DNA of 28,193 bases from a virus, in IMG/VR virus record IMGVR_UViG_3300006749_000086, positions 1-28,193 of that record; one strand, 5' to 3'. Within the stretch, counting starts at the first letter, position 1, and every line of letters begins with the position of its first letter. Both the position numbers and the translations under genes were made by a program. A model generated the notes under the pieces. It saw only the letters and a program-made list of their open reading frames with translations. It did not search any database and was not told where the DNA came from. Below, in pieces: positions 6,142-21,917 of the stretch.

Positions 6142-9100
6142 TTAATTATTTGTAATTACATTTATCATTGATACTACATCTAATATATCAACTTTTGATA
6201 AATCTTGTTTTGGTTCTCCAGCACTTGTATATACTAATTTTTCTTTTTGTTTATCTGTTAATTGTTTACCACCAATAATATGATTTACTAATTCAACTAA
6301 ATCAACTACATTTATAATTCCATCATAGTTTAAATCAAAATATGGTGATTCAATATCATTATGTTGATTTGCTAATGGATTATAATTTATGTTAGGTATA
6401 GGATTACCATTTGTATAATAAAAATCAGAATATTGTTTTGTGCAACCTCTAATTATGTATTCTTCGTTTGGCATTTCAAATTTATGATCACCAGTTACAT
6501 CTAAACAATGAAGTTGAAACGCTTTTATAGTAATACTATCTGTACCTATATTTGTTTCCATAATAATCCATAAAGGATATATTGCTTGGCCATTTAAAAA
6601 ACTAACTTTACTATAATCTATATTAAATATTTTCTCATTATTTATTAAAGGTAAATGTATTTTATCACCAACTGATAACTCTATGTAATTTGATGGCAAA
6701 GTCATTGTTACCATATTATGTGGATTACAATTATTTAAAATAGTAAACGCACCAAAATTTACTACACTTGATTCTAATGTGTGATATTTTAATTCTATTT
6801 CTTTATGTGTATCAATTTCCTGTACATTAAAATTATCAAATCCATTTAATTGATATTCAAGTAAAAAATTTATATCTTGTATTGATATTTCATAATCAAA
6901 TTCATATTTATCTTGCCCATAATCAAATCTATAAAACATTTTAACTGATGTTGTTATGTCTTCTCTTTTTGTTTGTTCAAATTTATATGTTAATATATCA
7001 TTTAAATTTATTATTGTATCAATATCATCATATGTATATGTATCTTTAATAGTTAATAACCCAAACTTACCATCGCTTGTGAATCTTGGATATGATCTAG
7101 ATTCTCTTAAAATATCTTCTATCAGTTGCTTTCCTTCTGTTTTTTCTTTAATTGAAAAACCCATTTTAATAGAATTGTGTGCATTTCTTGATTCTATTAT
7201 AGAATCCATATCAAATTTTGTATAATCAGGTGTAATTATATTTTCACCAACTTTTTCATCTGCATTTAATTTTCCATAACCCATTTCATTTACTAAAATA
7301 TTCATTACAATATCAGATGGTTTAACAATTATACCATCTGTTGTTAATGTGTTACCATCTAATCCCACAATTTGAGATTCTGCGTAATTGTACAAATCGG
7401 ATTGAATGTTACTTAAATTTAAATATGCTTCATCTGCACTTTGAAATCCACCTAAAACAGGAAAAAAAGTTGGTAAAAAAACATTTAAATTTAAACTACT
7501 ATCAAAAACATTAGAATAACTTACATCGCCTTGATATGCAATTTGATATTCAAATATAGCAGATTGCATAGATTCCATCATAGAAAAAATTAAATCATCT
7601 AAATAAATAAGTAAATTATCTATATAATCATCAATATCGTTAATTTGGTAATCATTCCAATTTTTATTTTGCATCATTTCATTTATTGAATCTGTTATAT
7701 CTATATTCTGTATATTTTGTGTAACTTTACTATAATAACTAAAAGTAAAATCATTGTGTTCTATATCTTTTTGTAACAAGTATTGATATATTTTTGCAAT
7801 AACTGATTTCATAAATGATTCACTTTCAATTAATAATAAAAAATTATTAAAATCAGTATTTGTTGTATCTGTATGTACTCTTTGTAAATCATATAAAGAC
7901 AATGGTGAACACATTGTTTTCCATATATAATTTTTAAAAAAATCTAATACGTTAAATATTGCAGAATCATCAATAAAATTTTGTTCTAATGATTCAATTA
8001 AAAATGGTGTTAAATCTGTGCCTTGTGGATAGATGTATGAACCGAACGTTTTTGTACTTAAAAAAGCAAAATTATTACCTATGTTAGTTGCGTTTGTAAC
8101 AAAAAAATTATCTCCTCCTGCATTTTCTGGATCTGCACCATCAAAAAAATTAGGATTTACTTCTAATGCAGCATCTTTTAAATCAGTAAAAATATTATAT
8201 GTTTGACTTAATAAAATATCATCAAATGGTAATGCTTCATCTTTGCCTTTAATTATTGTATCTAAATCAATATCTGTATTTACAGATTCATAATATTCTA
8301 ATTGTTCTGTAAAAAAATTATTTTTTCTACCTACTATGGAAGCATATATTTCTTCTTCTTGTAAGTTATCAATAGATACAGAATGTAATAAAGCAATATT
8401 ATCCATTCTCAAACCTTGTTGGTATGCTTTTGATCCTATCCAATATGGTGGGAAATATTCAAAAATAGCAATTAAATTATGTGCATCAGCATTATGTATT
8501 TCATCTATATAATTAGAATTTATACCATAATATAAACCTTGTATACCCCTATAATCGTGTGTTTGATTTAAATTGTTCGAATAACCAAACTGACTCCAAT
8601 AATTGTTCCCTCCTGATGTTGGTTCATTTTTCAATAAAAACATAGGTGCATTTAGATATGTATTTGTTTTTGGTGCATATATTTCTTGCATCGCACTTGT
8701 ATCATCAATTAATTCTAAATCTAAATCACTTTGTAATAATAATCTATTTAAATCTGCCTGTATATTAACTTGGTTTAATGAGCCACTTGCAAAATTTAAT
8801 CCATCTTTCCATACATCAGGTGATAATGGTGCTATAAAAAAACCTGTCCTATCAACAATTTCTGTTGGGTGTGTATTTAAATATGAATCTGAATTATTAG
8901 GCACACTAGATTCATTTATGTCTTGATATAATTGCCAATCTGCTAAAAAATAAGTATTAGCAGATACACCTGTAAATGATTGTTGTACTAAATTGTTATC
9001 AATTCCTTTTTTAAGTTTTAATATAATCCATCTTCCATCACCACCAGTTGTATCAGGACCATAATAACTAACTCCAGTATCAAAATTTGTTGTATTTGTA

Positions 9101-12921: not shown

Positions 12922-13254
12922 TTACCACGCTGATTGTGATTCACCATTGAATAATTCAATCTCTAATGCTTCATTATTATCAGATGTTCCTATATCTACA
13001 CACTCAAAAGACAATGTGTGAAATATACCATTTTCTGATATATCTTGAGCAGGATCGCCAGTATATTGAATATTCATTTGCATATTTAATTCACCAACTG
13101 ATGATAATGTGCCATCACCTATATTAATTGCAACAGCCATTGTATCACCATCAAGAAAATCTTGAATAACATTTGCACCATCTGTATAATCAAAGTTATC
13201 GTCCATTTTAATAGTTAAATCACCTGTAATTGCATATTCAGGTATTGCATACAA
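12922..13254 (-). CDS. C-terminal part of the tail-tube protein, downstream of an in-frame TAA
   Basis: This 110-residue segment is in the same frame as the tail-tube gene and separated from it by one TAA. Its beginning (LYAIPEYAITGDLTIKMDDNF) reads as a direct continuation of the previous domain, with LKSLNLNIANGVNRVGF just before the stop. The first possible start is a TTG right after the stop, without a clear ribosome site. It may be the read-through tail of the tube protein, a re-initiated separate chain, or the result of a single base error in the assembly. A proper stop follows ESQSAW. Confidence 0.65.
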   Translation of the reverse strand: MYAIPEYAITGDLTIKMDDNFDYTDGANVIQDFLDGDTMAVAINIGDGTLSSVGELNMQMNIQYTGDPAQDISENGIFHTLSFECVDIGTSDNNEALEIELFNGESQSAW

Positions 13255-14019
13255 TTATGCATCACCATTTGAATTAAATCCAACTCTATTTACACCATTT
13301 GCTATATTTAAATTCAATGATTTTAATACTAAATCTTTAGCACTACCATCAGATACTAAAGTTTTTGTACTCATATCACCAATGTTATAATAACCTGTTG
13401 CTTCAGGTGCTGTCCAGTTTGCTAATGTAAAATCAGTTTCTAATGATGTAGCACCTGCAAGTGGATTAGAAAAACCACTAAAATAGTTACCACTCATTGT
13501 CATAAATCCACCATTATTACCAAAATCTAATGATAATGCTAAATCTGATACGACTGCACCTGATATTCTAATACCACCTGATGCTTGTGGATAATATGCT
13601 AAATTTACAGTATGTGGTATATTGTTAGAAATAGATCCACCAATTTGTGCAATTTCTGAACCCTGCCCACCAACTTCATACAGATGTTTATATGAACCTG
13701 ATTCTGAATGTTCTTGTAGCACTAATGCTAAATGCTGTGCTAATAATTTAGGTGTAGCAATACATTCAAAAGGCATTGTAACTGTACCACCTCTTGTATT
13801 AATAATTGTATCATCTTTATGTTTTACTAAACCTCTACCTGATAATAATCTTGATTCCCTAGTTATATTAAATGTTGGTTTTTGCACTTGCACTACAGGC
13901 AGTTGTCTATATGCAGTTCCATCAGTACCATCATTATCCAAACCAGCACCAAATGCAGTTTCTGCTTTTATTCCAACTCTAACATCACTAATAGGGCGTA
14001 CTACTTCGCTAATAGCCAT
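13255..14019 (-). CDS. Major tail tube protein, N-terminal/main part (254 aa to the TAA)
   Basis: This gene encodes the probable tail-tube subunit, which stacks as hexamers around the tape measure. Features are VRPISDVRVGIKAETAFGAG at the start, a beta-rich middle with RESRLLSGRGLVKHKD, and LKSLNLNIANGVNRVGFNS at the end, typical of a tube fold whose last strands continue. A TAA then interrupts, followed in frame by 110 further residues. It starts TAATG over the upstream gene after an AAGGAGAAC ribosome site. The location between tail terminator and chaperones supports the role. If read through, the chain would be about 365 residues. Confidence 0.82.
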   Translation of the reverse strand: MAISEVVRPISDVRVGIKAETAFGAGLDNDGTDGTAYRQLPVVQVQKPTFNITRESRLLSGRGLVKHKDDTIINTRGGTVTMPFECIATPKLLAQHLALVLQEHSESGSYKHLYEVGGQGSEIAQIGGSISNNIPHTVNLAYYPQASGGIRISGAVVSDLALSLDFGNNGGFMTMSGNYFSGFSNPLAGATSLETDFTLANWTAPEATGYYNIGDMSTKTLVSDGSAKDLVLKSLNLNIANGVNRVGFNSNGDA

Positions 14020-20026: not shown

Positions 20027-20315
20027 CTCTATTTAACATATTTAAAAACTTGTGCTTCAATCCGTTACCACTTAATTTTGCTATAATTTCTACTAATGTT
20101 TTATAACTGCGTTCTAAACCTTTTTGTTCAATCTGCATCAACTTCTGTTGATCTATTAGTTTTATAATTATCATTTCAACTCTACTAAAACTTTCACGCA
20201 TTTCTTTTGATAATTCATCTTGTATATATTTGTTTTGTTTTTGTATAAAAATCCAAAATGCAATAGCAACTGCTAATGGTACTCCATATCTTTCTAGTAA
20301 TTCAAACCAATCCAT
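20007..20315 (-). CDS. Holin-like membrane protein (102 aa)
   Basis: A single membrane helix lies near the N-terminus (about residues 10-25, GVPLAVAIAFWIFIQK), followed by a long coiled coil and a charged C-terminus. This resembles BhlA-type phage holins with one transmembrane segment. It lies two genes downstream of the endolysin, and the lysozyme itself lacks a signal peptide, so a pore-forming holin is needed. It overlaps the metallophosphoesterase stop (TAATG). Which membrane protein in the cluster makes the pore cannot be decided from sequence. Confidence 0.6.
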   Translation of the reverse strand: MDWFELLERYGVPLAVAIAFWIFIQKQNKYIQDELSKEMRESFSRVEMIIIKLIDQQKLMQIEQKGLERSYKTLVEIIAKLSGNGLKHKFLNMLNRDENDRI

Positions 20316-21508
20316 TATACTACAACTTTAAATATTGTTGTTCCTTTTTTAATCTTGCTACTGCTTTTTGCATTGTATGCAACTAATGATTTATCTATAT
20401 TGTATCCTTCACCATAGTTTTGCAAATCAATCTTTACACCATCTCTATTACCATTGTTGTAAAATATGTAGCAATTCTGTGATGCTCTACCAGTTAAACC
20501 TAATCCTTTTTCACTATAATCATTACTACCTACCATTGATGAAGATCTTGAAAAGTTATCACCAACTCTTGCACTATGAACGTGGCCAAAAATGACGTAA
20601 TCTATCTTTGTACCTCTTGCACTATATCTGCCCATTATTTGTGTTATACTAGTATCTAATCCTTTTTTTATACTACCATTTCCGTGTAGTATTAATAAAT
20701 TTTGCCCTGCTACTTCAACTACCATTTCAGTAGGATCACCATCTATAAATTTTATATTTGTATCTCTAAATATGTATTCTAATGTTTTAAATATGGTATA
20801 ATCATAGTTATCTGATGCTAAAGATTTACTCCAACCCCATTCTTGTTTAACTCTACTTTCATTACCTGTTACCATACACACAGATACGTTAAAATTGCTG
20901 TTTAAATCAAGTATTACTTGTTGTAGTATATCTACTGCTAGAAATGTTGCTTTTGCTCTATTTGTAGCCATTGATAGTAATTCATCTAATCTTCTATCAC
21001 TATTAAGTAAATCACCACTCATAGCAAGTAGTACATTAGTTATGCCCATTGATTTAAAATAGGTAGTTGCTTTATCTACAAATAACTTGCATCTTGCTGA
21101 TGCTATACTAAAATCATACTTGTTATGTTCTAAATTTACAAGTTCATTAAAATGCAAATCAGATAATTGTGCTACACCTACTGCTTTTGTATTTTCTTTG
21201 TGTTTTTTAGTATATTTAGATAATTCATAATTGTCAAAAATCTTTAAAAGTTTATTTACATAGTGAGATATTGCATTTTCTACTCTTGCGTGTTCTCTAA
21301 ACGATTTTCTTTCAATTCTATTTAGATCTTGTGCAGATTGTTTTTGTTTTGCTAACCTGACATTCTCTTTAAGTAAATCAATATCTTCTATAACATTAGT
21401 TGCTCTATGCCCACATACCTTACATTTGTATCTTTGTCTATCTAAATAAAAGCCACTTTTTACCATTCCTACGTAGTAGCATTTAGGACAAACTATATTA
21501 CTAGGCAT
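20315..21508 (-). CDS. Metallophosphoesterase with N-terminal zinc ribbon (397 aa)
   Basis: Residues 7-32 form a zinc ribbon (C7/C10 and C29/C32). A calcineurin-like phosphoesterase domain follows, with D117-x-H119 (LSDLHF), GD at 165-166, GNE at 215-217, H275 (LILHGNG) and GHVH at 308-311. These coordinate two metals and cut phosphate ester bonds in nucleotides or nucleic acids, as in SbcD/Mre11-like nucleases. The usual GNH is GNE here, so the expected catalytic histidine is absent. The location between the lysozyme and holin-like genes is odd for a DNA enzyme. Substrate is unknown. Confidence 0.82.
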   Translation of the reverse strand: MPSNIVCPKCYYVGMVKSGFYLDRQRYKCKVCGHRATNVIEDIDLLKENVRLAKQKQSAQDLNRIERKSFREHARVENAISHYVNKLLKIFDNYELSKYTKKHKENTKAVGVAQLSDLHFNELVNLEHNKYDFSIASARCKLFVDKATTYFKSMGITNVLLAMSGDLLNSDRRLDELLSMATNRAKATFLAVDILQQVILDLNSNFNVSVCMVTGNESRVKQEWGWSKSLASDNYDYTIFKTLEYIFRDTNIKFIDGDPTEMVVEVAGQNLLILHGNGSIKKGLDTSITQIMGRYSARGTKIDYVIFGHVHSARVGDNFSRSSSMVGSNDYSEKGLGLTGRASQNCYIFYNNGNRDGVKIDLQNYGEGYNIDKSLVAYNAKSSSKIKKGTTIFKVVV

Positions 21509-21509
21509 A

Positions 21510-21917
21510 TTACCCCACTTTTCTTAATCTATCGCTTAATTCCTTTGCACGTCTTGGTGTATCTGTTCTTGCCCATTTGCTATCTAGCATTTCGGTTGAT
21601 GCTGCTTTATAATCACCATTAGCAAGTAAAAAAATAGTTTTTTTAAATTTACTAAATGCAGTTACACCTAACTGGTAATTCATATTTATTACTACTTCTT
21701 GTACTTCTTTAGGTGAGGGCAAAAACCATTCATACTTATCTGCAAGTATGTATTTGAGATTTTGTAGTTCTTCTTGCAACCATTCTGTTGCTTGTTCTTC
21801 TGTAACTTTTAAATACTTAACACGTTGGCCATATCCAATAGTATCATATCCTGCTGTACATTTATATACGGTAGGTGAAAAACCTTCGTGTTTTTTAATG
21901 TCATCTATTAACGACAT
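21510..21917 (-). CDS. T4-type lysozyme endolysin (GH24)
   Basis: This 135-residue enzyme cuts the peptidoglycan sugar backbone to release progeny. The active-site stretch HEGFSPTVYKCTAGYDTIGYG matches T4-type lysozymes in both spacing and numbering, with E11 the general acid and T26. The usual D20 is C20, a known natural variant. A downstream FPEVD-like helix (EVQEVVINMNYQLGVTAF) and the RR-AKEL-SDRLRK end also fit. No signal or membrane anchor is visible, so it should need a holin. It shares its first base with the previous gene's stop. Confidence 0.88.
   Translation of the reverse strand: MSLIDDIKKHEGFSPTVYKCTAGYDTIGYGQRVKYLKVTEEQATEWLQEELQNLKYILADKYEWFLPSPKEVQEVVINMNYQLGVTAFSKFKKTIFLLANGDYKAASTEMLDSKWARTDTPRRAKELSDRLRKVG

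Follow-up and report, generated by a model that had tools for sequence, protein, structure and literature searches.

An isolated in-frame TAA in a predicted two-domain phage tail-tube gene: probably a sporadic mutation or a sequencing/assembly error

The interrupted gene and its predicted product

The window analysed here is the whole of IMG/VR virus record IMGVR_UViG_3300006749_000086, a stretch of 28,193 bases with a G+C content of 29%, in which nearly all phage genes lie on the minus strand. One of these, encoding a tail-tube protein, is broken by a stop codon in its own frame (Table 1). An earlier note on this DNA had described two same-frame segments of 254 and 110 residues, with a single TAA between them and a TTG after it, and re-reading of the minus strand gave the same arrangement. 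The ATG of part 1 is preceded by a good Shine-Dalgarno sequence, AAGGAG, and the frame of part 2 runs for 110 codons past the stop before being closed by a TAA of its own. Codon 256, immediately 3' of the in-frame TAA, is TTG. The perfect inverted repeat that had also been reported, TGCATA-ATTG-TATGCA, is exact at the position tabulated.

Table 1. Features of the interrupted tail-tube gene in the window
Feature	Position	Strand	Remark
Tail-tube protein gene, 365 codons + stop	12922..14019	-	One in-frame TAA inside; continuous gene in relatives
In-frame TAA, codon 255	13255..13257	-	Glu codon in 80/80 relatives (best 80 of 111)
Part 1, 254 codons	13255..14019	-	Predicted first tube domain (~residues 6-200) and beginning of second
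Part 2, 110 codons	12922..13254	-	Predicted rest of second tube domain (domain ~residues 203-358)
Perfect 6-bp inverted repeat, 4-nt loop, enclosing the stop	13246..13261		Chance-level
GGTGAT, Shine-Dalgarno-like hexamer	13261..13266	-	6 nt upstream of TTG; codes conserved Gly-Asp

The gene product is predicted to be a two-domain tail-tube protein of the P74-26/T5 type. With the TAA written as Glu, for profile searching and folding only, the read-through protein matched Pfam PF18906 (Phage_tube_2) over residues 11-339, at 44.4 bits against a cut-off of 27 (E 2.1e-11), and neither half alone reached the Phage_tube_2 cut-off. An AlphaFold model based on 11 sequences was poor (pLDDT 33), and the model used is based on 75 (pLDDT 85.8, pTM 0.87). 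Residues 8-360 of this model align with the P74-26 tail tube (8ed0_A; Z 24.2, 3.5 A, 311 aligned), and the model also aligns with the tail-tube protein of SH-Ab15497 (Z 23.7) and with T5 pb6 (Z 21). Tube proteins with a single domain match one of two regions, about residues 5-200 or about residues 203-358, so that the protein contains two tandem tube domains. A sequence search of the PDB gave no useful match. The profile match above the curated cut-off and the near-full-length fold alignment are what the product has in common with Phage_tube_2, P74-26 and T5 pb6, and they bear out the tail-tube identification made in the earlier note. Its proposal that the 110-residue segment continues the tube fold also agrees with the model and alignments, which assign this segment to the later portion of the second tube domain. 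The window copy differs from tubes of the P74-26/T5 type in its in-frame TAA, which falls in the second tube domain, in a modelled loop between strands 232-240 and 263-271, and which is found in none of the best 80 of 111 sequence relatives.

Conservation and selection around the stop

A comparison with homologues, proposed in the earlier note as a check, returned single frames with a sense codon in place of the stop. Single-protein scans of IMG/VR, one per half, gave 13 and 4 loci; all 13 loci of the half-protein scan encode one uninterrupted protein with a Glu codon exactly at the TAA of the window. An alignment-based scan of IMG/VR then matched 111 loci, and the best 80 of these, among which are the loci of the earlier scans, show 53-92% protein identity to the window. 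Nearly all of the 80 are full length, at about 353-373 residues where no contig end cuts the gene. Every one of them has Glu at the stop position (GAA in 73, GAG in 7), and none has an internal stop anywhere in the gene or carries part 2 as an independent gene. The nearest relatives among the matches listed, at 92% and 91% protein identity, are both uninterrupted. The window breaks only one of 94 near-invariant columns (those at least 97.5% conserved among sequences other than the window), namely the stop itself, and the frame is interrupted at codon 255 in this contig alone. Because the best 80 of 111 relatives have one unbroken frame and an invariant Glu codon, neither programmed read-through nor a natural two-gene arrangement is, on the sequences compared, a trait of the family. 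DNA-pattern scans for near-identical viral contigs with either allele found none, in a collection that may leave out records almost the same as the window, and tblastn against phage GenBank records gave no match. A scan of bacterial and archaeal genomes found no relative, and no host was therefore assigned.

When the window was paired with each of its two nearest relatives, dN/dS was 0.06-0.11 for part 2 and 0.09-0.12 for part 1, indicating that part 2 is under normal purifying selection, undiminished relative to part 1. Such intact constraint implies that the stop is very recent, or is an error, or that part 2 is still translated. If part 2 is untranslated, the age of the stop would be at most about 10-15% of the terminal branch of the window, a Poisson bound that assumes neutrality after the stop and is rough, with few changes and a three-sequence branch estimate. 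With the ORFs from two related records set against the window, no other gene-breaking lesion was found, so the contig as a whole is not degraded. A random substitution in these genes would create a nonsense codon in about 5.5% of cases, so that one such event in one contig picked among many is unsurprising.

Possible explanations of the stop

A stop within the frame of a gene for an abundant structural protein resembles recoding, a tempting lead that the family-wide comparison closes. Reassignment of TAA as a sense codon was rejected, since TAA terminates 29 of the 38 ORFs in the window, the end of this gene included, and frameshifting or slippage was rejected since the site has no homopolymer or slippery run. 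It is extremely improbable that a host suppressor tRNA or leaky termination decodes the TAA to give a 365-residue protein, with or without the shorter form. The frame does remain open for 110 further codons under purifying selection, and the resulting protein would have a normal two-domain fold, but TAA is the main stop of the phage, the window contains no tRNA genes and hence no phage-encoded suppressor tRNA, and the local hairpin is unremarkable (z -1.5). Rfam elements are likewise absent from the window. The in-frame stop has the TAA-T context that is commonest among the stops of the window, and bacterial termination is strong where UAA is followed by U. A recoded stop would be conserved among relatives and would separate a complete upstream product from a downstream add-on; here it is shared by none of the best 80 of 111 and it splits the second tube domain. 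The tube fold is thus incomplete without part 2, which argues against the suggestion of the earlier note that programmed read-through yields a longer minor tube protein. In phage SPP1, a tail-tube gene also has coding sequence past its stop, and a +1 frameshift at CCCUAA extends a complete tube protein by a dispensable FN3-like part, so that the complete short form, gp17.1, occurs beside the longer gp17.1* (PMC6316719). The window gene, in contrast, has neither a frame change nor a slippery site, and the region past its stop is predicted to be core fold; a 254-residue product, without most of the second tube domain, could not be the counterpart of gp17.1 as a short but complete tube protein. 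A literature search for UAA read-through in a tail-tube gene found none, the match concerning a -1 frameshift in the E/E' tail genes of P2. A functional split gene has also been considered, in which termination at the TAA is followed by re-initiation at the TTG, aided by GGTGAT, and the 254- and 110-residue chains associate into a tube subunit. Re-initiation would be physically possible, in that the pairing of GGTGAT with the anti-Shine-Dalgarno sequence (-8.9 kcal/mol) is better than at 96.6% of random sites, placing it in the top 3.4%, and the stop and start codons are adjacent; moreover, the break falls in an inter-strand loop of the AlphaFold model and purifying selection persists on part 2. 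The earlier note had seen no clear ribosome site before the TTG, which does not hold for the strength of this pairing but does hold in that the site appears fortuitous: GGTGAT encodes the conserved Gly-Asp within the NGDAE motif, is present in most of the nearest unsplit relatives too, and is hence no adaptation. Codon 256 is ATG in the closest relatives, so that an ideal start has been lost rather than gained, the opposite of the change expected under selected re-initiation. In addition, a tube protein is required in many equal copies, for which weak re-initiation at TTG would be a poor supply. With no split gene in any of the best 80 of 111 relatives and ATG replaced by TTG, termination followed by re-initiation is very improbable. 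A newly arisen and still functional tube protein, made as two chains from the TAA-TTG junction or by partial UAA read-through, would be allowed because purifying selection on the 110 codons is undiminished, and is regarded as quite improbable. Nothing points to either bypass.

The preferred explanation, with a probability of about 0.88, is that a lone nonsense substitution, either a real mutation or a consensus error, gave rise to the TAA within one two-domain tail-tube gene. These are the two of the four meanings put forward in the earlier note, nonsense mutation and assembly or sequencing substitution, that the homologue comparison supports. A real mutation would be a true, very recent and probably loss-of-function change in the sequenced phage molecule(s), and an error would be a wrong base in the consensus of a metagenomic contig. 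Termination at the TAA would yield a 254-residue protein comprising the whole first tube domain but no more than a third of the second, and the 110 codons that follow would be the orphaned remainder of that domain, with no separate gene. The stop itself probably has no programmed role. Sporadic nonsense substitutions and consensus errors in metagenome-assembled genes look alike, being confined to one sequence and to an invariant site with the rest normal, and no difference from them was identified. What counts against a nonsense substitution is that a tube-less phage should not propagate, so that a consensus with such a lesion needs a special circumstance, be it low coverage, a single molecule, an error, a defective genome or some bypass. 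The inverted repeat raises the possibility of template switching, a sub-hypothesis of the nonsense-substitution explanation whose probability overlaps with it. One arm of an inverted repeat that was still imperfect would have been copied onto the other, either in replication or in an in vitro amplification step, turning the Glu codon into TAA and perfecting the arm, and the palindrome would then be a cause and not a function. The substitution does lie inside an arm of a perfect inverted repeat, and quasipalindrome-associated template-switch mutation is an established mechanism (PMC7202029). Nevertheless, of all the nonsense mutations that one base change could create in these genes, 3.4% would fall in such an arm and appear alike, the window and its nearest relatives differ in both arms, which a single templated copying cannot explain in full, and substitutions are not significantly clustered round the stop (P 0.13). 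Template switching at the repeat is therefore weakly supported and unlikely. The palindrome is near chance level and not remarkable, as the window has 114 perfect 6-bp hairpins with loops of 3-8 nt, compared with 94 in Markov-simulated sequence. A regulatory signal was rejected on these counts together with the hairpin z score and the 3.4% chance placement, and a clustered multi-base mutation was rejected on the same P value.

As judged from sequence comparison, the locus most likely represents a one-off mutation or a sequencing/assembly error rather than a novel route to tail proteins. The comparison also establishes that this gene, from a group of uncultured AT-rich phages, encodes a tube protein with two domains like those of P74-26 and T5. 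Should the stop be fixed in the population, it would offer a rare natural test of a two-chain tube subunit.

Other features of the contig

At 12893-12229 on the minus strand lies a lambda G/GT-like tail assembly chaperone pair. Its 88-aa frame ends just past an A9 run (AATAAAAAAAAATTG). Beyond this run the -1 frame is open for about 130 codons and has no separate start near the overlap. Related records G001 and G002 share both the A9 run and the -1 arrangement, and the pair is a good candidate, from its sequence, for programmed -1 frameshifting. The C-terminus of a 1357-aa tail protein (6142-6420, minus strand) resembles a type I dockerin repeat (PF00404, E 6e-4, just below the curated cut-off), which is unusual in a phage tail protein. 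Both contig ends (1-146 and 28002-28193, minus strand) lie in one gene, which from its place next to the portal gene is probably that of the large terminase subunit. The two ends correspond to residues 6-55 and 364-428 of the G001 homologue, so that the contig seems to have been cut from a circular or permuted genome, with about 0.9 kb missing. The gene at 20315-21508 (minus strand) has a weak match to calcineurin-like phosphoesterases (PF12850, 3.8e-5, below the cut-off) and a zinc-ribbon-like N-terminus, and it adjoins a phage lysozyme gene at 21510-21917 (PF00959, 1.6e-13).
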